Source: Micromonospora sp. WMMD882
Lineage (GTDB): Bacteria; Actinomycetota; Actinomycetes; Mycobacteriales; Micromonosporaceae
NCBI RefSeq assembly: GCF_027497255.1
Contig: NZ_CP114903.1
Location: forward strand, 6,302,962 to 6,366,961
Length of the DNA: 64,000 bases
Direction of reading: 5' to 3'
Of the stretch, positions 12,786 through 54,171 are shown in pieces. Position 1 is the first letter of the stretch. The number at the start of each line of letters is the position of its first letter. The notes under the pieces were generated by a model, which saw only the letters and a program-made list of their open reading frames with translations, searched no databases and was not told the origin of the DNA. Position numbers and translations under genes: made by a program.

Positions 12786-13427
12786 TCAGCGGGTACGACG
12801 TCGGATCAGCAGGGCGATGCCGGCCAGGCCGATCGTGATGGTGACCACCACGCCCGCGTTCAGCAGCAACAGCCGCTGCAACTCGCCGAGCGCCTCGTCG
12901 AGGTCACGCCCGGGATCCAGCGACTCCTCGGGGATCATCCGCTCACCACCGCCGACCCCGCCGCTGACCGTCTCGACCTGCCGGGGCAGGGGCACCCCGG
13001 CCGTCCGCAGCGTCTCCGACATGTTGAGCCGGCCGAGGAACCAGCCGTCCCGGGCCTTGCGCCCGTCGGGCTGCTTGGCCGGGCGGAACGCCCGCGGGCC
13101 GCCCTTGGCGAGCGGGTAGAGGTCGAAGGTCTGTTTCGCCTTGTCCCCGGCGAGCACCACGACCGTGTACTTCGGACCGAGATCGGCCGCCTTCGGGCCG
13201 GACGCTTCGCCGGTGGCGGCGAACCAACTGACCTGGTCGATGACCGCGGTCACGTGCGCGGCGTCCGTCTCGACCCGCAACCGGAGCGGCTCGGTCAGCC
13301 CCTCGCCGGTGATGTCCACCCCGGGCGGTGGTGGTTTCGGGGCCGCCGCGGCGACGCTGACCGGCGCCAACACGACCAGCATCACGCCGATCGCCGCACC
13401 GAGCAGTCGACTCACCCTCCGGACCAT
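12786..13427 (-). CDS. secreted, C-terminally anchored hypothetical protein
   Basis: 213 residues. There is an N-terminal signal peptide (RRVSRLLGAAIGVMLVVLAPVSVAAAA), an extracellular domain of ~150 residues, and a single C-terminal helix (LLLLNAGVVVTITIGLAGIALLI) followed by RRRTR as stop-transfer. The ATG at 13427 has GAGGAGG upstream. I do not recognise the family. It is divergently arranged with the CopC-like gene, which has the same signal-peptide/C-terminal-anchor architecture, so the two may act together at the cell surface. Confidence 0.75.
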   Translation of the reverse strand: MVRRVSRLLGAAIGVMLVVLAPVSVAAAAPKPPPPGVDITGEGLTEPLRLRVETDAAHVTAVIDQVSWFAATGEASGPKAADLGPKYTVVVLAGDKAKQTFDLYPLAKGGPRAFRPAKQPDGRKARDGWFLGRLNMSETLRTAGVPLPRQVETVSGGVGGGERMIPEESLDPGRDLDEALGELQRLLLLNAGVVVTITIGLAGIALLIRRRTR

Positions 13428-13652
13428 CGCCGCCTCCTCGCCCCGTTTCGATGGATGGCCTTGCCGCAGGTCACGTGCTGACTGGAGATGGCACGACCGA
13501 GTCCCACCGGACCGGGCCTCCATCTCAAAGACTCCGCCGAACGTTGCCTGGTTGCAGCTTCCCGATCAGTATTTGGAACTATCTGCGATCTCGGTCCGAC
13601 TAACAACCAGACGTTCGACCGGTGGGCGGATCGTACCGTTACGGAGGAAAGC

Positions 13653-14264
13653 ATGGGGGGCGGAGTCCCACGAGTGGCGGCTGGCTGGCTGGTCGCGATC
13701 GTCATGGCGCTCGGTGTGGCCTTGTGGCCGGCGGCGCCGGCCGCCGCGCACAACTCGCTGACCGGCAGCGACCCGCGTGACGGCGCGCGGTTGGCGCAGC
13801 CACCGACCCGGGTCGAGCTGCGATTCCTCGCCCGGCTCGATCCGAAGACGACGAAGATCACATTGACCGGGCCGGACGACGTGCCCGCGTCCCGGGGCGC
13901 CCCGACCTTCGAGGGCTCCCGGGTCCGGGTGGCGTTCGCGCCGGGCGCGGCCGGCCGCTACACCGTCGCCTACCAGGTCGCCTCGTCCGACGGCCATCCG
14001 ATCAAGGGCGAGATCCGCTTCACGGTGACCACCGGCACGCCGGCCGACCCGTCGCCGACGACCGCCTCGCCCACGCCCTCCGCGGAACCGTCCACGCCGG
14101 CCGCCCCGACCGACGTGGCCACCACCGCGCCGGCCGTGGAGCCGGCGGCCGACTCCGCCGACGACGGTGGCCCGCCGGTCTGGCCCTGGGTTGTCGGAGC
14201 CGTCGCCGTGCTGGCCGCGCTCGCGGGCGGGCTCCTGGCCCGCCGCCGCTCCACGACGCGCTAG
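13653..14264 (+). CDS. CopC-domain protein with C-terminal membrane anchor
   Basis: 203 residues. After a signal peptide (LVAIVMALGVALWPAAPAAA) the mature chain begins at the His of AHNSLTGSDP, the usual copper-ligand position of CopC. The second His-containing motif SSDGHPIKGEIRF is also present. A Pro/Thr/Ala linker follows, then one membrane helix (WPWVVGAVAVLAALAGGLLA) and RRR. It probably binds copper on the outer face of the membrane. GGAGG precedes ATG 13653. There is no CopD gene beside it. Confidence 0.85.
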   Translation: MGGGVPRVAAGWLVAIVMALGVALWPAAPAAAHNSLTGSDPRDGARLAQPPTRVELRFLARLDPKTTKITLTGPDDVPASRGAPTFEGSRVRVAFAPGAAGRYTVAYQVASSDGHPIKGEIRFTVTTGTPADPSPTTASPTPSAEPSTPAAPTDVATTAPAVEPAADSADDGGPPVWPWVVGAVAVLAALAGGLLARRRSTTR

Positions 14265-14405
14265 CCACCGCCATCGCTGCCGCCATCGCTGCCGCCACCG
14301 CCACCGCCACCGCCACCGCCACCGCCACCGCCGTCGCTGCCGTCGCCGGTGCCGGTGCTGTCGGTGCCGGTTGTCACTGTCGTTGTTGCCGGTGCTGTCG
14401 CTGCC
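14265..14405. repeat. GCCACC hexanucleotide and related low-complexity repeat
   Basis: Directly after the CopC stop codon come about six tandem CCACCG/GCCACC units flanked by degenerate ATCGCTGCC and GTCGCTGCC variants, running into GGTGCTGTCG-type repeats. All frames give simple Arg/His or Ala/Val runs with no ribosome site, so I read it as non-coding simple sequence. Confidence 0.75.
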
Positions 14406-14660
14406 GCGCGTGCCCCGGACACCGCCGGCGCCGGGGTCCCGGCGGCGTCCCGACCTCGCAGGCGGGCGGGCGGGAGAGGGGTGCGCGACAGAGACTGTCG
14501 AGCTGCCCCATATTCGGGGCAGAGGCATCGGGCCGCGACGGAAAGGACGGCCGCCGTCGCGGACGTCGCCCGACTCCGTGGCCCGTTCTGTGTCGGCAGC
14601 GCCCGCCGTCGGCAGCGCCCGCCGAGACGGCTGGTGGGTGGCGGTGGGGCGGTGGGGCCG
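14406..14660. other. intergenic stretch with a 16-bp direct repeat
   Basis: No gene is seen between the hexamer repeat and the gltX stop. It contains two adjacent copies of GTCGGCAGCGCCCGCC (14592-14623). Confidence 0.5.
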
Positions 14661-16070
14661 TCAGGGGAGGCGGACCCGGGCGGCGCGCAGCCGCGCCAGG
14701 GCGCGCTCGCGGCCGAGCACCTCCAGCGACTCGAACAGCGGCAGCCCGACGGTACGGCCGGTCACCGCGACCCGGACCGGGGCCTGGGCCTTGCCGAGCT
14801 TGAGCCCCCGTTCGGCGCCCACCGCCTCCAGGGTCGACTTGAGCGTCTCCGCGTCCCAGGAGGTCAGCGTCTCGTATGCGGCCACGGTGGCGTCCAGCAG
14901 GTCGCCCGCGCCCTCCTTCATGGCCTTCGCCCACGCCGCCTCGTCGATCAGCGGGGACTCGACGAAGAGGAAGTCGACGTTCGGCACGATCTCGCTGAGC
15001 ACCGCGATCCGGGTCTGCGCCAGCGGGGCGACCGCCGCGAAGGCGTCCGCGTCGAACTCGGCCGGCTGCCACGGCGGCGGCGCGATGGTGTCGGTGCCGG
15101 TGAGCCACGGCCGGCAGGCGTCGACGAAGTCCTCGACCGACAGCGCCCGGATGTACTCCCCGTTGAACGCGCGCAGCTTCTTCTCGTCGAAGAAGGCGGG
15201 GGAGGGGTTCACCTCCGACAGTCGGAACTCCTCCTCGATCACCGACCAGGGCACGATCTCCCGGTCGCCGGAGGGGGCCCAACCGAGCAGCATCAGATAG
15301 TTGCGCATGGCGTCGGCGAGGTAGCCCTCGTCCCGGTACGCCTCCAGGGCGACCTTGTCGCGGCGCTTGGAGAGCTTCTGTCGCTTCTCGTTGACCACCA
15401 CCGGCACGTGCGCCCAGACCGGCGGCTCGACGCCTAGGGCGTCCCAGAGCAACTGCTGCTTGGGGGTGTTCGGCAGGTGCTCCTCGGCGCGGATCACGTG
15501 GGTGATGCCCATCGTCATGTCGTCGACGACGTTGGCGAGCAGGAACACCGGGGAGCCGTCACCCCGGGCGATCACGAAATCCTCGATCAGTCGGTTCTCG
15601 AAGGTCGGCTTGCCCCGGATCAGGTCGACCACCACGGTCACGCCCTCGTCGGGCGTACGGAAGCGCAGCGCCCGCCCCTCGCCCGACGGCAGGCCGCGGT
15701 CCCGGCAGAAGCCGTCGTAGCCGGCGTACTGCGAGCCGGCGCGGGCCTGCGCCGCCTCCCGGGTGCAGTCGCAGTAGTACGCCCGGCCCGACTCGTGCAG
15801 CCGGCGGGCGGCGGCGCGGTGCTCCTCGGCGTTCTGCGACTGGAAGTACGGCCCCTCGTACGAGCCGCGCTCGATGCCGATCCAGTCCAGCGCGGACAGG
15901 ATGCCCTCGGTCCACTCCGGCCGGTTGCGGGCGGCGTCGGTGTCCTCGACGCGCAGCACGAACACTCCGCCCTGCTGCTTGGCGTAGATCCAGTTCTGGA
16001 GCGCCGAGCGGGCGCCACCGACGTGGAACATACCGGTCGGAGAGGGGGCGAATCGCACGCGTACCGTCAC
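14661..16070 (-). CDS. gltX: glutamyl-tRNA synthetase
   Basis: A 469-residue class I aminoacyl-tRNA synthetase. The HIGH signature appears as [13 protein letters not shown] at residues 9-21 and the KMSKS loop as KLSKR at 232-236. Conserved [18 protein letters not shown] and [15 protein letters not shown] lie between them. GTG 16070 gives the standard N-terminus [13 protein letters not shown]. It charges tRNA-Glu, and in organisms lacking GlnRS it also charges tRNA-Gln for amidation. It is monocistronic. Confidence 0.95.
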
Positions 16071-45120: not shown

Positions 45121-46202
45121 GCGCCACCGACGGCGGCCGGTTCGCCGACTACGGGCGGCCCCGCCGGGTCGAGGGCGGTCTGCGGGCCCGCAGCGCCCGG
45201 GGCGCGATCGGCCGTTCCTGGTGGTCCCGCCGGTTCCTGGAGGTGCTGGAGTCCTTCGCGCTGGGCACCCGGCTGACCCGGGGCCGCGCGTACGCGCGTG
45301 CGGGGCAGGTGCTCGACCTGGCCGTCGCGCCGGGCGTGGTGAGCGCCACCGTGCAGGGCTCCCGTCCGCAGCCGTACCGGGTGCGGGTCGGGTTGACCGC
45401 CTTTCCCGATCCGCTCTGGCGGCGGCTGGAGGAGGACCTGGCAGCGCAGGCGTTCTTCAGCGCCCGGCTGCTCGCCGGTGACCTGCCCGCCGAGCTGGAG
45501 GACCTGTTCGCCGCCGGCGGCGCGCCGCTGTTCCCGTCCGGCGTGGGCGATCTGACGCAGCGCTGTTCGTGCCCGGACTTCGCGGTGCCGTGTAAACATC
45601 TGGCGGCGACCTTCTACCTGCTCGCCGAGGCGTTCGACGCCGACCCGTTCCGGCTGCTGCACTGGCGGGGCCGCAGCCGCGCCGACCTGCTCGACCGGCT
45701 CCGCCTGCTCCGCGCCGGCAACGGCCCGGCGTCGGGCGCCGGGTCCGGACCGGACGCCGCCGGACCGTGGGCGGACACCGACGGACCGCCGACGGAGGCC
45801 GCGCGGTCGTCGACGCGCGTCGCCGGACCGCCGGTGGACGCAGGAAAGCCGTCGGACGCAGGAAAGCCGTCGGACGCCGGAAAGCCGTCGGACGCCGGAA
45901 AGCCGTCGGACGCCGGAACGCTGTCGGACGTCGCCGGGCCACCGGCGGTGGGCGCGGCCCGGGTGCTGGCCGACCTGCCGTCCGCGCCACTGGCCGACCT
46001 GCTGGACCGGTTCTGGCTGCCACCGGTGCCGTTGCCGGACCGGCCACCGACCCTGCCCACCGGTCCGGAGCTGCTGCTACGGCAACTCGGGCCGCCCGGC
46101 AGCGATCTCGGCGGGCCGGGCCTGACCGAACGGCTGCGCCGGGCCTACCAGCGTTTCGCCGCCGCCGACCAGCCCACTGACGACCAGCTCGCCGCCGACT
46201 GA
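45117..46202 (+). CDS. SWIM zinc-finger protein partner of the SNF2 helicase
   Basis: 361 residues. IGRSWWSRRFLEVLESFALGTRLTRGRAYARAGQVLDLAVAPGVVSATVQGSRP is the usual N-terminal region. The SWIM finger CSCPDFAVPCKHLAA (CxCx6CxH) sits at ~151-165 and binds zinc, probably DNA or protein. A low-complexity stretch (~200-275) contains five AGKPSD-type hexapeptide repeats encoded by an 18-bp tandem repeat. The start GTG 45117 overlaps the helicase stop by 4 bases. Confidence 0.9.
   Translation: MSATDGGRFADYGRPRRVEGGLRARSARGAIGRSWWSRRFLEVLESFALGTRLTRGRAYARAGQVLDLAVAPGVVSATVQGSRPQPYRVRVGLTAFPDPLWRRLEEDLAAQAFFSARLLAGDLPAELEDLFAAGGAPLFPSGVGDLTQRCSCPDFAVPCKHLAATFYLLAEAFDADPFRLLHWRGRSRADLLDRLRLLRAGNGPASGAGSGPDAAGPWADTDGPPTEAARSSTRVAGPPVDAGKPSDAGKPSDAGKPSDAGKPSDAGTLSDVAGPPAVGAARVLADLPSAPLADLLDRFWLPPVPLPDRPPTLPTGPELLLRQLGPPGSDLGGPGLTERLRRAYQRFAAADQPTDDQLAAD
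45840..45929 (+). repeat. coding tandem repeat, five 18-bp units
   Basis: Units GCAGGAAAGCCGTCGGAC x2, GCCGGAAAGCCGTCGGAC x2, then a diverged GCCGGAACGCTGTCGGAC. In frame in the SWIM gene, encoding AGKPSD repeats. Confidence 0.85.
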
Positions 46203-46296
46203 CCCGTCGACCAGTCCGCCGCCGACCAGTCTGCCGACGCCGTCGACCGGGCCGCCGCCGACCACCGACCCGTCCTCCGGCGGGCGGTCGGCGGCG

Positions 46297-46554
46297 TCAG
46301 AGCCATCGGCGTCGGTAACGCCACATGAGCCCTGAGTTGACCAGGAGCACCACGGCGCAGACCGCGCCGGCCAACCGTCCGGCGAGCACGGTCGCGGCCG
46401 GCAGCGAGGCCCACAGCACAACCGTCAGCAGCATCAGGTAACGGCCGCGACGGGCCTGTGCCCGCTGGTCGAGCCGGGCGAAGAACTCCGGATCGCTCTC
46501 CCGGAGACGCCTGGTGATCTGTTCGAACCTGCGCTGATCCTCTTTGCTGAGCAT
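46297..46554 (-). CDS. DUF3040 small membrane protein
   Basis: 85 residues starting MLSKEDQRRFEQITRRLRESDPEF, the typical DUF3040 head (a short basic/acidic helix), followed by two membrane helices (LMLLTVVLWASLPAATVLA and LAGAVCAVVLLVNSGLMW) and RYRRRW. The role of the family is unknown. GGGGAAGG lies 9 bases upstream of ATG 46554. It is divergent from the DUF1800 operon across a 408-base gap. Confidence 0.85.
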   Translation of the reverse strand: MLSKEDQRRFEQITRRLRESDPEFFARLDQRAQARRGRYLMLLTVVLWASLPAATVLAGRLAGAVCAVVLLVNSGLMWRYRRRWL

Positions 46555-46962
46555 GGCGGTGCCTTCCCCTCACGCGTTCAGCGGTTCGGCGGCATACCCG
46601 CTGGGGTGGCGGCTCACGCCCCTGGTGCTGCTTCTTTGCCGGCTTAGTGAAACCTTAAGTTTCACTGTGCCCGGGAAGCTGCCGTTCCGGGTCGGGGAAT
46701 GACCGGACGTCACCTTTCCGACGTCGACGGACGTGTCTGCCCTGCTCCGGGCGTCCACCCGCGATCCGACGGGCGCGGCTGGCCGTCGGGGCGGCCTGAG
46801 CGGTGTCTTAAGTGCCCCGACGCCCGCCGTTCGACCTGCTTGAAGGCGGTCTACCGCTTGGTTACCTTGCCGTAGCACCCAACCAGGAAACAGCGCCCGC
46901 ACCTGTACGGACTCCACACCGGCGGGTCGTGACGGCGCTTGACGCAGAAGACGGATTGGTAC
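46555..46962. promoter_or_regulatory. divergent control region with AGTGAAAC dyad and sigma-A-type promoter
   Basis: No gene lies in these 408 bases. AGTGAAAC-CTTAA-GTTTCACT (46646-46666) is a perfect 8-bp-arm inverted repeat, a candidate operator. TTGAAG (46840-46845), 17 bases, then TACCTT (46863-46868) is a good promoter for the operon starting at 46963, giving an ~85-base leader. Confidence 0.55.
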
Positions 46963-49185
46963 ATGGCCGACCAGAACGTGCCTCCACGCCGGCCCCGGGA
47001 CGACGGCCGCTGGGACGGGCGACAGCACCCCACTCCGGACGGGTACCGCGATCCGCGACCGGCGCAGCCGTACGACACCGCGGGGTACCCGTCGGCCGAT
47101 CCGTACCACCGGCCGTACGACGGCCAGTCGGGTGACCCCCGGACGTCGTACCACCCGTGGCCCGGTCAGCCGCAGCCCGACCCGGCCCCCTGGTCCGACG
47201 GACCGGCGCAGGCCCCGTGGTCCGGCGCTCCCGCGCAGGCCGGCTGGTCCGGTGGGCCGGCGCAGGCGGGGCAGGGGCCCTGGTCGGGGTCGACCGAGCC
47301 GGGGCGGCGCGGGCCGCAGTGGGTCGGCCCGGCCGGGCTCGGCCCGCAGGGGCGCCCGGACGGCGACCGGGGACTGCCCAACCTGGACGATGACGACGAC
47401 ACCGGTCGGCGCAGCAGCCGCCGCAAGGCTCTCGCCGCGCTCGGCGGCACCGCCGCGGTCGTCGCCGGTGGCGCGGCGCTCGCGATGACCCCGCAGGTCC
47501 GGGGCCTGTTCGGTGGCGACGCGGCGATCGCCGGGGACGCCACCGGCACGAAGGTCACCGACGGCACCACGGCCCGCCCGAGCGGCCAGCAGCCGAGCAC
47601 GGTACGGACGTACACCACCCAGAACGAGAGCTACATGGGCTCCCGGGCCGGCGCGGAGCTGAAGAAGAACAGCCCGAAGACCGGCAGCACCTTCTCCGGC
47701 CCGGCCGCCGCCGCGGCGGCGACCACGGTGACCGTCAAGACGGTGCTCGCCAAGGACCCGATCCGGCACCTCGCCACCCGCACCACGTTCGGGGCGACGC
47801 CGAAGGTGCTCGCCGACATCAAACGGATGGGCATCGACGCCTGGCTGCGCTGGCAGCTCGATCCGGAGAAGATCGCCCCCACCAGGGCGGAGCTGAAGCT
47901 CAGCGAGCTGCCCACCCTGCGGATGACCCCGAAGCAGCTCCGCGAGCAGCGCGACATGCTCAACGACAAGGGCGCGCAGCCGGAGAAGGAGATGGTGGAC
48001 GCCACCATCGCCCGGCAGATCTGGTCGGACCGGCAGCTCTTCGAGGTGATGGTCGACTTCTGGAACGACTTCCTGCACGTCGCCGCGGACTTCGACGGCG
48101 GTGAGGTGTACCGGCACTCGTTCGACGTCGAGGTGGTCCGCAAGCACGCCATGACCAGCTACCCGGACATGCTGGTCGCCGCGAACCGGCACCCGGCGCT
48201 GCTGATCTACCTGAACCAGAACGACTCCCGCGCGGACGCGATCAACGAGAACCTGGCCCGGGAGAACCTGGAGCTGTACTCGGTGGGCGTGGACGGCGGC
48301 TACACCGAGAAGGACGTCCGACAGGCGGCCATGCTGCAGACCGGCCGGGGCGTCGCCGACGGCGAGTACGTCTTCCGCCCCGACCGGCACTACGTCGGCA
48401 AGGTGAAGATCCTCGGGTTCAGCCACGCCAACGCCTCGAAGGACGAGAAGCAGGCCGACGCGGTCATCGACGCGTACATCAGGTACATCGCGCTGCACCC
48501 GTCCACCGCGAAGCACATCGCGTACAGCCTGGCCACCCGGTTCGTCTCGGACACCCCGCCGAAGACCCTGGTGGACCGGCTCGCCAAGACGTACACGGCG
48601 AACAAGGGCCTGGTCAAGCCGGTCCTGATGACGCTGTTCAGCTCCTCGGAGTTCTGGGCGTCGGTGGGGCAGAAGGTGCGCCGGCCGATGGAGTACCTGC
48701 TCGCCTCGTACCGGGTGCTGGGCGTCTCGCCGGAGGCGTCGCCGGACTACAAGGCCGACGACAACAAGCGCACCCCGTACGCGCGGGGGCTGCGGCAGAT
48801 CCACGACAAGCTGCGGGAGCTCGGGCACTACCCGATGGGTCAGCCCACCCCGGACGGCTACCCGGACGTCTACGTCGCGTGGACGTCGGCCGGGACGATG
48901 GTCAACGGCTGGAACGAGGTCGGCGACATCGTCAACGGCTACCGCAAGGCGTTCTCGTACGTGAAGCCGGAGCGGCTGGTCGCGAAGCCGCCGGCCACCG
49001 CCGGGGCGTACGTGGACGCGCTCGCCCAGCGGCTGGTGCACCAGAAGCTGACCGCGAAGGAGAAGACGCTGATCCTCGGCGTCGCCGGGGTGTCGGCGAG
49101 CACGAAGGTCGACGCCACGTTCAACGGGGCCGTCACCGCCGTCGCGCGGGCGATCCTCGCGTCCCCCCAGCACCACCTCCGGTGA
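46963..49185 (+). CDS. DUF1800 protein, putative Tat substrate
   Basis: 740 residues. A long Pro/Gly/Gln-rich head (~150) precedes a twin-arginine-like signal (RRSSRRKALAALGGTAAVVAGGAALA) and an exported DUF1800 domain: HLATRTTFGATPKVLADIKRMGIDAWL, VDFWNDFLHVAADFDGGEVYRHSFDVEVVRKHAM, NENLARENLELYSVGVDGGYTEKDVRQAAMLQTGRGV. DUF1800 genes are nearly always followed by DUF1501, as here. The function is unknown. It is the first gene of a five-gene unit with a reductase, FMN-binding protein and ApbE. Confidence 0.9.
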   Translation: MADQNVPPRRPRDDGRWDGRQHPTPDGYRDPRPAQPYDTAGYPSADPYHRPYDGQSGDPRTSYHPWPGQPQPDPAPWSDGPAQAPWSGAPAQAGWSGGPAQAGQGPWSGSTEPGRRGPQWVGPAGLGPQGRPDGDRGLPNLDDDDDTGRRSSRRKALAALGGTAAVVAGGAALAMTPQVRGLFGGDAAIAGDATGTKVTDGTTARPSGQQPSTVRTYTTQNESYMGSRAGAELKKNSPKTGSTFSGPAAAAAATTVTVKTVLAKDPIRHLATRTTFGATPKVLADIKRMGIDAWLRWQLDPEKIAPTRAELKLSELPTLRMTPKQLREQRDMLNDKGAQPEKEMVDATIARQIWSDRQLFEVMVDFWNDFLHVAADFDGGEVYRHSFDVEVVRKHAMTSYPDMLVAANRHPALLIYLNQNDSRADAINENLARENLELYSVGVDGGYTEKDVRQAAMLQTGRGVADGEYVFRPDRHYVGKVKILGFSHANASKDEKQADAVIDAYIRYIALHPSTAKHIAYSLATRFVSDTPPKTLVDRLAKTYTANKGLVKPVLMTLFSSSEFWASVGQKVRRPMEYLLASYRVLGVSPEASPDYKADDNKRTPYARGLRQIHDKLRELGHYPMGQPTPDGYPDVYVAWTSAGTMVNGWNEVGDIVNGYRKAFSYVKPERLVAKPPATAGAYVDALAQRLVHQKLTAKEKTLILGVAGVSASTKVDATFNGAVTAVARAILASPQHHLR

Positions 49186-49193
49186 GGCACCCG

Positions 49194-50573
49194 ATGGAGA
49201 AGACTGTGTACTCGTACCCTCTGCACCCCGAATGCCCCGACGTACGGCGACTGGCGGACGACCCGGCGGAGGCGCTGCTGCGGGCGGAGGCTGACGTGGT
49301 GGCCGCCGAGAACGCCGCCGAACGGGACCGCTACCTGCGCCTGGAGGCGGAGGAGGAGGCCCAGCAGGACGGCCGTGGGGTGACCCGGCGGACGTTCGTC
49401 GCCGGGGCCGCCGCCACCGCCACCGCCCTGGCCACCGCGCAGTTCGTCACCACCTCGGCGTCGTTCGCGGCGACGAAGACCGGCACCCTGATCCACGTCT
49501 TCCTCTACGGCGGTCTGGACGGGCTGAGCCTGGTCGCCCCGGCCGACGACGCGGTCCTGCGCAAGGCCCGCCCGGACCTGACGTTGGGCGAGGACTCCCT
49601 GGCCCTGGCCCGCAACTTCAAGCTGACCAGCGCGTTCTCTCCGCTGGAGAAGTGGTTGAAGGCCGGGCAGCTCGGGTTCGTCCCGGCGGTCTCCGACGAG
49701 CGGCTGTCCCGCAGCCACTTCCAGGCCGCCGACGCCTGCAACCTGGGCGGCCTGCCCGGCGAGACCGGCGGCCGGGGCTGGCTGGACAGCCTCGTCGACC
49801 ACCTCGGCAAGGGCACCGCGTTCCGTAGCGTCGGCGTCGGCAGCACGCTGCCCCGTTCGCTGGTCGGCACGAACGGCGCGCTCTCCCTGAACAGCGTCGG
49901 CTCGCTGCGCCTCAACGGCGACGAGAAGTTCCGGGCCGCCACCGAGAAGGCCATCAAGGGGCTGTTCACCGGGATCAACCACCCGGTGCAGGAGGCCGTC
50001 CAGGACGGGCTCGGCGCGCTGGCCACCGCCCAGCAGTTGGCCGCCAAGCCGTACCAGGCGGCGGAGGGCGTCGAGTACCAGGGCGTCGGCAACGCGTTCA
50101 AGCAGCTCGCCCAGCTCATCAAGGGCGGGGCGAACGTGCGGGTCGCCACCATCGGCATGGGCGGCTACGACACCCACGAGAACCAGGGCACCCGGGAGAA
50201 CGGTCAGCTCTGGCGGCGGCTCAACGAGCTGGCCAGGGCGATGGCCGCGTTCTTCACCGACCTCGGCGAGCAGTCCGCCGACGTGACGGTCATGGTGTCC
50301 AGCGAGTTCGGCCGTCGGGTCGCCTCCAACGGCGGCGGCACCGACCACGGCCACGGCGGCGTGGTCACCGTCCTGTCCGGACGGAAGCTGACCAGCTCGC
50401 TGCTGGGCGCCTGGCAGGGGCTGGACGACCTGGACAGCGGCGACGTGCCCGAGTACAACAACATGTTCGACGTGTACGGCTCGGTGGCGCAGGGCCGGTT
50501 CGGCCTGACCAACGCGGAGGTGGACAAGATCTTCCCCCGGATGACGTACTCCCCGATGAAGCTGTACGCGTGA
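49194..50573 (+). CDS. DUF1501 protein, Tat-exported
   Basis: 459 residues. A ~60-residue charged head is followed by the Tat signal GVTRRTFVAGAAATATALATAQFVTTSASFAA. The DUF1501 domain (sulfatase/alkaline phosphatase-like fold) shows FLYGGLDGLSLVAPADD, SRSHFQAADACNLGG, GGYDTHENQGTRENGQLWRRLNELARAMAAFF and SSEFGRRVASNGGGTDHGHGG, whose Asp/His residues may bind metal. The start is 8 bases after the DUF1800 stop, and its end overlaps the reductase gene by 4 bases. Confidence 0.9.
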   Translation: MEKTVYSYPLHPECPDVRRLADDPAEALLRAEADVVAAENAAERDRYLRLEAEEEAQQDGRGVTRRTFVAGAAATATALATAQFVTTSASFAATKTGTLIHVFLYGGLDGLSLVAPADDAVLRKARPDLTLGEDSLALARNFKLTSAFSPLEKWLKAGQLGFVPAVSDERLSRSHFQAADACNLGGLPGETGGRGWLDSLVDHLGKGTAFRSVGVGSTLPRSLVGTNGALSLNSVGSLRLNGDEKFRAATEKAIKGLFTGINHPVQEAVQDGLGALATAQQLAAKPYQAAEGVEYQGVGNAFKQLAQLIKGGANVRVATIGMGGYDTHENQGTRENGQLWRRLNELARAMAAFFTDLGEQSADVTVMVSSEFGRRVASNGGGTDHGHGGVVTVLSGRKLTSSLLGAWQGLDDLDSGDVPEYNNMFDVYGSVAQGRFGLTNAEVDKIFPRMTYSPMKLYA

Positions 50574-51988
50574 CGTACCCGCGCACCCACGCCGCCGGCC
50601 GTCGCGACGGGACCTCGTCCCGTTCCGGCGGCCGGTCGGCTGCGTCGGCCCGCCCGCAGTCGCCGCCCCGGCGCGGGCCCGCCGGTCGCCGTGCGGTGCT
50701 GGGGCTGCTCTGGGTCGGGCTGCTGCTGGCCGTGACGCCCTGGTGGCTCCAGACGCCTGACGACTCGCTGCGCACCACCACCGCGACGCTGACCGCCGCC
50801 GGCCGGATCACCGGCCTGGTCGCCGGCTACCTGCTGCTGGTCCAGGTGCTGCTGATGAGCCGGCTGCCGGCGCTGGAACGCCGGCTCGGCGCGGAGCAGC
50901 TCGGCCGCTGGCACCGGGACGTCGGGGTGACCCTGCTGGTGGCGGTGCTCGCCCACGCCGCCCTGACCCTGGTCGGCTACGCCCGGCTGCAACGGCAGTC
51001 CGTGCTGGCCGAGGTCGGGGTGCTGCTGCGGGACTACGAGGACATGGTGGGCGCGTTCGCCGCCGCCGGGATCCTGGCGCTGCTCGGCTTCACCGGCGTC
51101 CGGGCGGTCCGCGCCGCCCTGCCCTACGAGCTGTGGCACCACCTGCACCTGAGCAGCTACCTGGTGCTGCTGCTCGGTTTCGGGCACCAGTTCGCCCACG
51201 GTCAGCAACTGTTCCGGCCCGGTCCGGTCCGCACCGGCTGGATCGTGGCGTACCTGCTGGTGGCCGCCGCGCTGCTGTGGGGGCGGGTGGTCGTGCCGCT
51301 GCGGCTCAACCTGCGGCACGGGCTGCGGGTCGCCGACGTGGTGGCGGAGAGCCCGGACACCGTCTCGATCTACCTGACCGGCCGCCACCTGAACCGACTC
51401 GACGTGCGCGGCGGGCAGTTCCTGCGTTGGCGGTTCCTCACCCGGGGCTGCTGGTGGCAGTCGCACCCGTTCTCGCTCTCCGCCGCCGGCAACGACCGCT
51501 GGCTGCGGCTGACCGTCAAGGTGGTCGGCCGGCACACCGCCGACCTGCGGGAGCTGACGCCGGGCACCCGGGTCTGGGTGGCGGGGCCGTTCGGCTCGTT
51601 CACCGCCGAGAGCCGGACCCGCGACCGGGCGCTGCTGATCGCCGGCGGCAGCGGCATCGGCCCGATCCGCGCCCTGCTGGAGGAGCTGCCGCCGGGCGCG
51701 GCCCTGGTCTACCGGGCCAGCACCCCGGCCGACGTGCTGCTGCACCGGGAGCTGGACTGGCTCGCCGAGGCCCGGCAGACCGACGTCTGGTACGTCGTGG
51801 GCTCCCGCCGCGACCCGGGCCCCCGTCAGGTGATGAGCCCGGAGGGGCTGCGTCGGCTGGTGCCCGACCTGACCGAACGGGACGTCTGGTTATGCGGGCC
51901 GAAAGGCATGGTCGAGGCCACCGTGCGGGCGCTGCGCCGGGCCGGCGTGCCGCGCCGACAGATCCACCTCGCCACGTTCGAGCTGTGA
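50570..51988 (+). CDS. ferric-reductase-like transmembrane flavoprotein
   Basis: 472 residues. Six membrane helices from ~40 to ~250 carry pairs of heme-ligand His: GRWHRDVGVTLLVAVLAHAA and LWHHLHLSSYLVLLLGFGHQFAHG. The C-terminal ferredoxin-reductase module has the FAD site WWQSHPFSLSA and NAD(P)-binding IAGGSGIGPIRALL and WLCGPKGMVEA. It passes electrons from cytoplasmic NAD(P)H through FAD and hemes across the membrane. The start GTG overlaps the DUF1501 stop. The next gene, an FMN-binding protein, is the likely extracytoplasmic acceptor. Confidence 0.92.
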   Translation: MTYPRTHAAGRRDGTSSRSGGRSAASARPQSPPRRGPAGRRAVLGLLWVGLLLAVTPWWLQTPDDSLRTTTATLTAAGRITGLVAGYLLLVQVLLMSRLPALERRLGAEQLGRWHRDVGVTLLVAVLAHAALTLVGYARLQRQSVLAEVGVLLRDYEDMVGAFAAAGILALLGFTGVRAVRAALPYELWHHLHLSSYLVLLLGFGHQFAHGQQLFRPGPVRTGWIVAYLLVAAALLWGRVVVPLRLNLRHGLRVADVVAESPDTVSIYLTGRHLNRLDVRGGQFLRWRFLTRGCWWQSHPFSLSAAGNDRWLRLTVKVVGRHTADLRELTPGTRVWVAGPFGSFTAESRTRDRALLIAGGSGIGPIRALLEELPPGAALVYRASTPADVLLHRELDWLAEARQTDVWYVVGSRRDPGPRQVMSPEGLRRLVPDLTERDVWLCGPKGMVEATVRALRRAGVPRRQIHLATFEL

Positions 51989-52002
51989 GAGAGGTCCACG
52001 CC

Positions 52003-52611
52003 ATGCGTCGCGCGCTCCTCGCCGTCACCGGTCTGGCCGCCGGCACGACCCTGCTGGTCGTGCTCAAGGGCGCGCCGGAGACCACCCCGGTCGCCGGGCT
52101 GGCCGCCCCGGAGCGACCGCCGGTGGTCCCCGCCCCGTCCGGGCCCGCGCCGGGCCCGACGCCGACCGGCGGCACCGGCTCGTCCCGGCCGTCGCCCACC
52201 GCCACCCCGGCCGCCGACGAGCGGTCCACGCCCGCGCCGACCCGCTCCGCCCGTACCCCGACCGCGCGGGCCACCACCGCGGTCCCGGCGCCGAAGCGGA
52301 CCACCGCGACCCCGAAGGCCGCGACCCGGCGGACGGTGACCGGCCCGGTGGTCGGTAACGAGTACGGCAACGTCCAGGTGCAGGTCGTCGTGAGCGGCAC
52401 CCGGATCGTGGACGTGAAGGCGCTGGAGCTGCCGGAGGAGACCGCCGAGTCGGACCGGCGCAGCGCCTCGGTGAACAGCCGGTACAGCGGCCCGGACGGT
52501 CAGGCCGTCCAGCGGCAGAGCGCCAGCCTGGACACGGTCTCCGGGGCCACCGCGACCAGCGACGCGTACCGGCAGTCGTTGCAGGCGGCCATCGACGCCG
52601 CCCGTGGCTGA
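52003..52611 (+). CDS. FMN-binding domain protein (ApbE substrate)
   Basis: 202 residues. The N-terminal helix RRALLAVTGLAAGTTLLVVLKG is a signal or membrane anchor, followed by a long Pro/Thr/Ala-rich linker. The FMN-binding domain (~115-202) has YGNVQVQVVVSGTRIVDVKAL and the flavinylation motif DTVSGAT (D177-T183), in which Thr183 would be covalently linked to FMN. GAGAGAGG precedes ATG 52003. It lies between a membrane reductase and apbE, so it probably carries electrons outside the membrane. Confidence 0.92.
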   Translation: MRRALLAVTGLAAGTTLLVVLKGAPETTPVAGLAAPERPPVVPAPSGPAPGPTPTGGTGSSRPSPTATPAADERSTPAPTRSARTPTARATTAVPAPKRTTATPKAATRRTVTGPVVGNEYGNVQVQVVVSGTRIVDVKALELPEETAESDRRSASVNSRYSGPDGQAVQRQSASLDTVSGATATSDAYRQSLQAAIDAARG

Positions 52612-53470
52612 CGTGTCCGCCGGCAGCGCGCCCCCCGTGGGCGGCGTGGCTCTCGACTGCGGCGTTGCTCTCGAAGGCGGCGTGGCGTCCGGCGGTCCCG
52701 GCGTGGCCGCCGGGCGCCGGCCCGGGTTGCGGCGGGTCGAGCAGGTGATGGGTACGCCGATCAGCCTGGACCTGGCCGACGACCTGCCCCGGGCCGTCCT
52801 CGACGAGCTCGCCGACGGGGTGTTCGCCTGGCTGCGCGAGGTCGACGCCCGGTTCAGCACGTACCGGGCGGACAGCGAGGTGCGCCGGTTCGGCCGGGGC
52901 GAGGCGCCGCTGGCCGGGGCGTCGGCGGACCTGCGCCTGGTGCTGGAACGCTGCGCCGACCTGTGGGCCGACACCGACGGCTTCTTCGACGCGTACGTCA
53001 CCGGGGCGTGGGACCCGTCCGGGTTCGTCAAGGGCTGGGCGACGCAGGTCGCCTCGGACCGGCTGCTCGCCGCCGGGGCGGCCAACCACTGCCTGAACGC
53101 CGGTGGCGACGTGCGGGTCCGGGGCCGTTCGGCGGCGGGCCGGCCGTGGCGGATCGGCGTCCAGGACCCGTTCGACCGGGCCGCGACCTGCCTGGTGGTG
53201 ACCGGCACCGACCTGGCGGTCGCCACGTCCGGCGACTACGAGCGCGGGCCGCACGTGCTCGATCCCCGGCGCGGGGCGCCGGCCCGGGGGCTGCGTTCGG
53301 TGACCGTGGTCGGCCCGGACCTGGGGGTGGCGGACGCGTACGCGACGGCGGCCATGGCGATGGGTCGGGCCGGCGTGGGCTGGCTGGACCGGCTGGCCGG
53401 CCACGAGTACGCGGTGGTCACCGACGACGGCAGTTGCCGGTGCTCCCCGCGTCTGCCGTCCGCCGACTGA
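52604..53470 (+). CDS. apbE: FAD:protein FMN transferase (ApbE)
   Basis: 288 residues. ApbE motifs are present: EQVMGTPISLDLADD, DARFSTYRADSEVRRF, DPSGFVKGWA, HCLNAGGDVRVRG and VATSGDYERG, with the metal-site Asp/Thr region ADAYATAAMAMG. It transfers FMN from FAD to the Thr of the SGAT motif in the protein encoded just upstream. GTG 52604 overlaps that gene by 8 bases. No signal peptide or lipobox is visible at the Ala/Gly-rich N-terminus, unusual because most ApbE proteins act outside the membrane. Confidence 0.93.
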   Translation: MADVSAGSAPPVGGVALDCGVALEGGVASGGPGVAAGRRPGLRRVEQVMGTPISLDLADDLPRAVLDELADGVFAWLREVDARFSTYRADSEVRRFGRGEAPLAGASADLRLVLERCADLWADTDGFFDAYVTGAWDPSGFVKGWATQVASDRLLAAGAANHCLNAGGDVRVRGRSAAGRPWRIGVQDPFDRAATCLVVTGTDLAVATSGDYERGPHVLDPRRGAPARGLRSVTVVGPDLGVADAYATAAMAMGRAGVGWLDRLAGHEYAVVTDDGSCRCSPRLPSAD

Positions 53471-53499
53471 GGGCCCGGGTGTCCAGGACGTACGGCGGC

Positions 53500-54171
53500 T
53501 CAGTGGCCGCGTCGGGGCAGGGGGAGCCGGCCGGGCAGCGCCCCTACGGCCGGGGCGGGCGTGGTGAGCCCGCTCGCCCGCAGCAGCTCGACGAGCACCG
53601 TCTGCGCCAGGTACGCGTCGGGCAGCCGCCAGCGGGCCTGCTCCGGGGCGAGCGCCCAGCGCACCGGCCCCTCGGGCAGCCGGGTGGGCGGGGCGGGGAT
53701 CCACGAGCCCAGCCCGTGCCGGATGACGTGGAAGCAGCGTTCCAGCTCCGGCCGCAGCGGCTCACCGGGGCTGACCAGGAACATCCACTGGCCGGTCGGG
53801 GTGACCGCGACCGGGCCCCGGGCCACCGGGACCGCGTCGACCGCGGCGCGGGCCGCCCGTCCCAGGTAGGCCGGCACCTCCAGCACGTCGAAGGCGCGGC
53901 CGGTGGGCAGCAGCAGCGCGTACGGGCGGCTGCGCCACCAGGTCGCCACCCGGGCCGGGTCGGTGCTGGCGGCGAGCTCCCACTCCGGCAGCGCGGGGTG
54001 GCAGCCGACGGTGGGGCAACCGGCCCGCCCGCAGACGAACCTGCTGCGGGCCAGGCAGGCGCCGGGGGTGACCGCCCAGCCGCGCAGCGCGTACCGGACC
54101 GCGATCCGGCGTAGCCGGACCCGTTCCAGTGGTGACAGATGGACGACGCGCGGTCCGACGGTCCGCCACAT
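53500..54171 (-). CDS. bifunctional DNA primase/polymerase-like protein
   Basis: 223 residues, covering only a prim-pol N-terminal-type domain. RYALRGWAVTPGACLARSRFVCGRAGCPTVGCHPALPEWELAAS holds a four-Cys/His cluster, a possible zinc site. TDPARVATWWRSRPYALLLPTGRAFDVLEVP follows the usual prim-pol pattern, and GPVAVTPTGQWMFLVSPG ends the core. Active-site acidic residues are hard to find (the expected D-x-D/E appears as FDVLEV), so it may be inactive and regulatory. ATG 54171 has AGGAG 9 bases upstream. It is divergent from the XRE regulator. Confidence 0.75.
   Translation of the reverse strand: MWRTVGPRVVHLSPLERVRLRRIAVRYALRGWAVTPGACLARSRFVCGRAGCPTVGCHPALPEWELAASTDPARVATWWRSRPYALLLPTGRAFDVLEVPAYLGRAARAAVDAVPVARGPVAVTPTGQWMFLVSPGEPLRPELERCFHVIRHGLGSWIPAPPTRLPEGPVRWALAPEQARWRLPDAYLAQTVLVELLRASGLTTPAPAVGALPGRLPLPRRGH

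Follow-up and report, generated by a model that had tools for sequence, protein, structure and literature searches.

MsrQ-like flavinylation clusters, which bring together genes for a PF01794 protein, a flavin mononucleotide (FMN)–binding protein, and ApbE, are widely conserved in Actinobacteria, and 1437 of the 1797 clusters include PF00175, according to the accessible text of Meheust et al. 2021 (PMC8238504). A pair of genes encoding DUF1800 and DUF1501 proteins has already been described in bacterial chitin synthase operons (PMC5122149, partial text), and neither family is mentioned in the main text of PMC8238504, supplements aside. We analyzed a 64-kb window (the whole stretch of DNA under study) at the end of the genome of Micromonospora sp. 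WMMD882, a single contig of 6,366,961 bases, in which a DUF1800–DUF1501 pair is joined to a cassette encoding a transmembrane reductase, an FMN-binding protein, and ApbE. The host is a soil bacterium. No report of this join was found in the parts of the literature that were accessible, and as far as that literature goes the locus is an operon-like join of known parts, new in combination, with separable halves. We consider it probable that a single promoter serves two modules able to function separately and that the join reflects shared regulation or locus history. It would not be a chain whose halves need each other, because either half is missing singly from this locus in some relatives, and the half that stayed shows a low ratio of nonsynonymous to synonymous substitution rates (dN/dS).

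Five plus-strand genes span 46963–53470 with gaps of 8, −4, 14, and −8 bases, and the coordinates, gaps, and families given in an earlier sequence-only reading of this DNA agree with our Pfam and open reading frame (ORF) analysis:

46963..49185, plus strand, DUF1800 protein, 740 aa (PF08811, 365.1 bits)
49194..50573, plus strand, DUF1501 protein, 459 aa (PF07394, 74.1 bits), with a twin-arginine translocation (Tat) motif
50570..51988, plus strand, heme/flavin adenine dinucleotide (FAD)/nicotinamide adenine dinucleotide (phosphate) [NAD(P)H] transmembrane reductase, 472 aa (PF01794, PF08022, PF00175), with a 4-base overlap with DUF1501
52003..52611, plus strand, FMN-binding protein, 202 aa (PF04205, 35 bits), with DTVSGAT
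52604..53470, plus strand, ApbE (PF02424, 148 bits)

All five proteins score above the curated Pfam cut-offs. The PF08811 and PF07394 genes adjoin on the same strand, and contiguous PF01794, PF04205, and PF02424 genes make up the complete reductase/FMN-binding/ApbE set that had been proposed.

Of 12 genus relatives searched, nine have a DUF1800 orthologue (77 to 81% identity), and all nine have the five genes in this order; contig ends cut two of these loci. Among 151 Micromonospora genomes screened with an orthologue cut-off of E ≤ 1e-120, 106 have DUF1501 and 116 have the reductase: 106 genomes hold both, 10 the reductase only, 0 DUF1501 only, and 35 neither. The two genes adjoin on one contig and strand in 105 of the 106 genomes that have both, the sole non-adjacent case (G452) being split between two contigs, one of which ends 91 bases from DUF1501, and the 4-base overlap seen in the window is kept in 96 of the 105. 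A sample of the family (101 genomes, 44 genera) yielded DUF1501 at ≥62% identity in 25 genomes, with the reductase adjoining in 17 from seven genera, six of them outside Micromonospora, which excludes confinement of the adjacency to this strain. Eleven joined loci outside the genus were retrieved (L038–L048), and all five genes are present in eight. In G021 (L042), DUF1800 and the reductase are each in several pieces and no ApbE match was found, the fragmentation being either recent decay or sequencing error; G057 has no ApbE match, and in G091 the contig ends inside the FMN-binding gene. When the class was sampled (296 genomes), both proteins passed the cut-offs in 20 genomes outside the genus and were adjacent in none of the 19 with reductase positions listed. 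A DUF1800-alignment scan of named genomes from many phyla, of which the best 80 loci were kept, showed DUF1501 adjoining in 77; reductase, FMN-binding, or ApbE genes were detected at four of the 80, all Micromonospora, with flavin-gene profiles built from the window's own family that could miss distant ApbEs. Additional copies were seen at two loci: L070 carries a second, distant DUF1800–DUF1501 pair (13335–15932) about 3 kb after the first, and L109 (2–915) has two DUF1800-like minus-strand frames besides its main DUF1800 gene.

The locus order SNF2–SWIM–DUF3040–[five genes]–Prim-Pol–helix-turn-helix (HTH) recurs in relatives (locus maps; SNF2 by Pfam), and at this same locus either half can be found without the other. 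The cassette is kept and the DUF pair gone in 12 genomes: ten from the genus, among 116 with the reductase and all with the same flanks, and one each from g16 and g28. Six of the ten have a 12-codon mini-ORF, MADQLDE(C/R)GG.., running from the DUF1800 start context to a GTGA overlap with the reductase start; one has a 5-codon ORF that also terminates in this overlap, and three have DUF1501 C-terminal remnants before the reductase. The g16 and g28 loci retain CTTAAG elements, a pattern resembling a promoter, and an ATG set in the sequence context of the DUF1800 start, more diverged in g28, and the g16 genome (G027) gave no DUF1501 match at E ≤ 1e-10. The reverse case is represented by four g39 genomes, in which DUF1501 is kept at the locus and the cassette is absent beside it. 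DUF1800 precedes DUF1501 in three of them, the contig of the fourth starting just before DUF1501, and downstream lie Prim-Pol and HTH in three and, as far as detected, HTH alone in G110. The whole five-gene block is gone from G005 and G007, where SWIM, DUF3040, Prim-Pol, and HTH are present; G001 is uninformative on block loss, its contig ending directly after Prim-Pol. At L171 (5120–6366), a locus from which the DUF pair has been lost, the reductase is split between two frames.

In a tree built from the proteins of the two flanking genes downstream, cassette-only rows occupy four or more positions (g16, g28, and two within the genus), and joined rows are found to either side of the midpoint root; the g39 rows lie among the joined ones. 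Eight state changes are needed, and the tree is most simply read as descent from a joined ancestor, with one part or another lost several times over. Simple dN/dS estimates, made without a significance test, were 0.16–0.19 for the reductase and 0.10–0.17 for ApbE in a six-genome cassette-only clade, and 0.24–0.31 and 0.26–0.29, respectively, in a second cassette-only group in which DUF1501 is still decaying. Within g39, the values were 0.26 for DUF1800 (one pair) and 0.19 and 0.32 for DUF1501; joined pairs gave 0.13–0.38 for the reductase, 0.20–0.35 for ApbE, 0.21–0.28 for DUF1800, and 0.11–0.25 for DUF1501. We read the low values as indicating that each half is still used without the other.

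The model of DUF1501 has an alkaline-phosphatase-superfamily fold, and because of this fold DUF1501 is less likely to be an electron acceptor than an envelope enzyme that acts on a phosphate- or sulfate-type ester, by hydrolysis or transfer. Its conserved D/H/E/S residues were compared with NPP motifs, and any metal ligands and nucleophile among them are putative. The Tat-type character attributed to both proteins is clear for DUF1501, in which the RR of TRRTFVAG (residues 65–66) is invariant in 18 of 18 rows, and less certain for DUF1800, which has a long low-complexity N terminus, a single RR (RRKAL) with a hydrophobic anchor segment ~150 residues from the start, and a helical domain. The predicted DUF1800 structure has a predicted local distance difference test (pLDDT) score of 93.7 and no significant fold match in the PDB. 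There are zero cysteines in the DUF1800 protein of the window, and a search of the DUF1800 and DUF1501 families for a redox motif found none. The first module would be an exported DUF1800–DUF1501 pair, separate from the cassette, whose substrate in the envelope would probably be a phosphate or sulfate ester, with DUF1800 as the likely helical partner of DUF1501. The sequence-only reading had instead made DUF1800 and DUF1501 the terminal redox or substrate-processing partners of the flavin chain, with the operon as one pathway. The near-constant adjacency within the genus, its spread over seven sampled genera, and the conserved overlap and promoter region speak for such a pathway, but the 12 genomes with the cassette alone, the four with the pair alone, the rarity of flavin genes at DUF1800 loci across phyla, the phosphatase-superfamily fold, and the lack of a redox motif in these families or of cysteine in DUF1800 make it very improbable.

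Several observations weigh against functional separability. The trees are quick ones with Shimodaira–Hasegawa-like approximate likelihood ratio test (SH-aLRT) support only and several open forks, and g16 and g28 are represented by one genome each. The FMN-binding protein evolves fast in both states (dN/dS 0.38–0.56 alone and 0.20–0.62 joined). The mini-ORF was read from sequence alone, and in three of the six genomes its frame is open further upstream. Decaying DUF1501 remnants are present in three of the ten cassette-only genomes of the genus, and two of these three (G484 and G507) have no recognisable promoter, the reductase of G507 also being split into two frames. The fold matches of DUF1501 have low TM-scores (0.28–0.42 by query length for the rows listed), and the role suggested for the first module is drawn from fold alone. 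Elsewhere in the g39 genomes there is a distant paralogue of the reductase (identity 43% in three and, over a partial match, 47% in G076), which might stand in for the missing cassette. Finally, loss within the genus is one-sided, with the cassette alone in 10, the pair alone in 0, and neither in 35 of the 151 genomes, and therefore leaves room for a Micromonospora pair that depends on the cassette. In such a one-way arrangement, the cassette would have its own role and the Micromonospora DUF pair would rely on it, for example for maturation or substrate, and so would not be kept alone. We regard this as unlikely, although not negligible: the 10-to-0 asymmetry favors it, but the ten genomes fall in perhaps two flank-tree groups and so reflect few events, the pair persists in g39 where this cassette is missing, and the pair occurs without detected flavin genes in 76 of the 80 cross-phylum loci minus three in which no DUF1501 was seen.

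Two features lie upstream of the operon:

46297..46554, minus strand, DUF3040 gene, divergent and outside the operon (PF11239, 53.2 bits)
46640..46868, plus strand, promoter region with three CTTAAG-like elements and TTGAAG-17-TACCTT

The DUF3040 gene is a fixed upstream neighbor, present in 29 of the 40 locus stretches examined. Upstream of DUF1800, TTGAAG at 46840 is followed after a 17-base spacer by TACCTT. This promoter, already pointed out in the sequence-only reading, was not recovered by a strict sigma-70 scan of 46200–53700, which found no promoter, but is supported by an alignment of 12 upstream regions, in which the −35 TTGAAG is exact in 9 and a TA..TT −10 stands at the same place in 11. 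Three spaced CTTAAG-like elements (CTTA-N7-CTTAAGTTT, CTTAAGT, and CTTGAAG) are conserved between the DUF3040 gene and DUF1800. The promoter pattern is recognisable in 10 of the 12 cassette-only loci, including 8 of the 10 in the genus (all except the G484 and G507 loci). Together, the conserved promoter region and the conserved overlap suggest shared transcription of the five genes. The modules could still be mere neighbors through an accident of locus history, with no shared regulation that matters, as their separability and the occurrence of each alone elsewhere would allow. We give this little credence, since the 4-base overlap spacing is so widely kept, and six cassette-only genomes retain both the mini-ORF ending in the overlap and a recognisable promoter, which suggests that the shared transcript matters for the cassette. 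Two separable modules behind one promoter remain our preferred account.

The reductase matches Ferric_reduct (PF01794, 52.8 bits), NAD_binding_1 (PF00175, 35.7 bits, residues 356–451), and FAD_binding_8 (PF08022, 25.8 bits). His 115, 129, 193, and 206 are invariant in 30 of 30 rows and, as the pairs H115/H129 and H193/H206, fit two heme sites. As to the six helices given to this protein in the sequence-only reading, five hydrophobic segments exceed the hydropathy cut and the stretch with H193/H206 falls below it, six being what is expected of the family. The FMN-binding protein, by its appearance anchored in the membrane or exported, has an N-terminal RR and a hydrophobic segment, and its DTVSGAT at 177–183, located as had been claimed, fits the flavinylation motif [DN]xx[ST]GA[ST], with T183, the last residue, as the candidate flavin site. 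In the alignment of the family, 23 of 29 rows have the motif. In such families electrons pass from NAD(P)H through FAD and hemes to FMN. The second module would accordingly be expected, from its families and motifs, to carry electrons from cytosolic NAD(P)H to FAD, across the membrane through two b-type hemes, and on to FMN at T183, to which ApbE would attach it. Three cassettes without the DUF pair (L059, L060, and L066) have two conserved downstream genes in common, which in L060 encode a response regulator and a histidine kinase.

The window ApbE, which has solved ApbE relatives, has no leader apparent by hydropathy, and none was found among the orthologues examined; its true start may lie further in than annotated. 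At 9 of 37 ApbE loci, the reading frame stays open for no more than 28 residues ahead of the conserved core, and that stretch has no hydrophobic segment. Three loci exceed the hydropathy cut, but across upstream open frames of 676–712 residues, which are too long to be all ApbE; the count leaves out one further locus without an anchor match. The FMN-binding protein has RR at residues 2–3 in 41 of 41 orthologues, which is weak evidence for Tat export in Arg-rich genomes. The accessible text of PMC9973259 sets Tat export of proteins loaded in the cytosol against extracytosolic ApbE, the latter needing an outside FAD supply, and a review (PMC12052999, partial text) reports leaderless ApbE for intracellular targets. 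A literature search, partly of titles and abstracts, returned no paper on a cytosolic ApbE whose substrate is exported. We tentatively raise the possibility, which we think somewhat doubtful, that in this actinobacterial family a leaderless ApbE attaches flavin in the cytosol and that the twin-arginine FMN protein is then exported folded by Tat. If true, cytosolic loading would make unnecessary the FAD export on which extracytosolic ApbEs depend, and a transmembrane flavin chain would be supplied in another way. Should the absence of a leader on ApbE and the twin-arginine N terminus of its substrate be borne out, cytosolic loading of extracytosolic flavoproteins could be tested directly.

The repeated natural deletions at this locus amount to an unplanned knockout series: genes can stay joined in a conserved operon without forming a single pathway, which counsels caution in assigning orphan families from gene neighborhood. 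For DUF1800 and DUF1501, the deletions direct work to phosphate or sulfate ester chemistry and away from redox.

Compared with known systems, DUF1501 shares its fold with the alkaline phosphatase superfamily (NPP 7mw8/2gsn, PafA 5tj3, and choline sulfatase 6fny) at 8–15% identity; metal and nucleophile assignments in DUF1501 are putative. The same two families adjoin in the chitin synthase operons, with the DUF1501 twin-arginine motif in both systems (PMC5122149, partial text), whereas the pair described here is joined to a flavin cassette, so far in one actinobacterial family; no chitin synthase or sugar epimerase was present among the five neighbors scanned (SNF2, SWIM, DUF3040, Prim-Pol, and HTH). 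The best solved sequence relatives of the reductase are the 8qt6 group (a bacterial FAD-binding FR-type protein, E 1e-10), the match being limited to residues 179–376, and the window reductase differs in sitting with an FMN-binding protein and ApbE. We take 8qt6 to be the SpNOX NADPH oxidase, the database entry naming only the domain. The cassette is like the MsrQ-like clusters (PMC8238504, partial text) in its heme protein with a C-terminal NAD domain, its motif-bearing FMN-binding protein, and its ApbE: PF01794 is contiguous with the FMN-binding and ApbE genes, and the C-terminal PF00175, frequent and not obligatory in such clusters, is present. It differs from them in an ApbE without an apparent leader.

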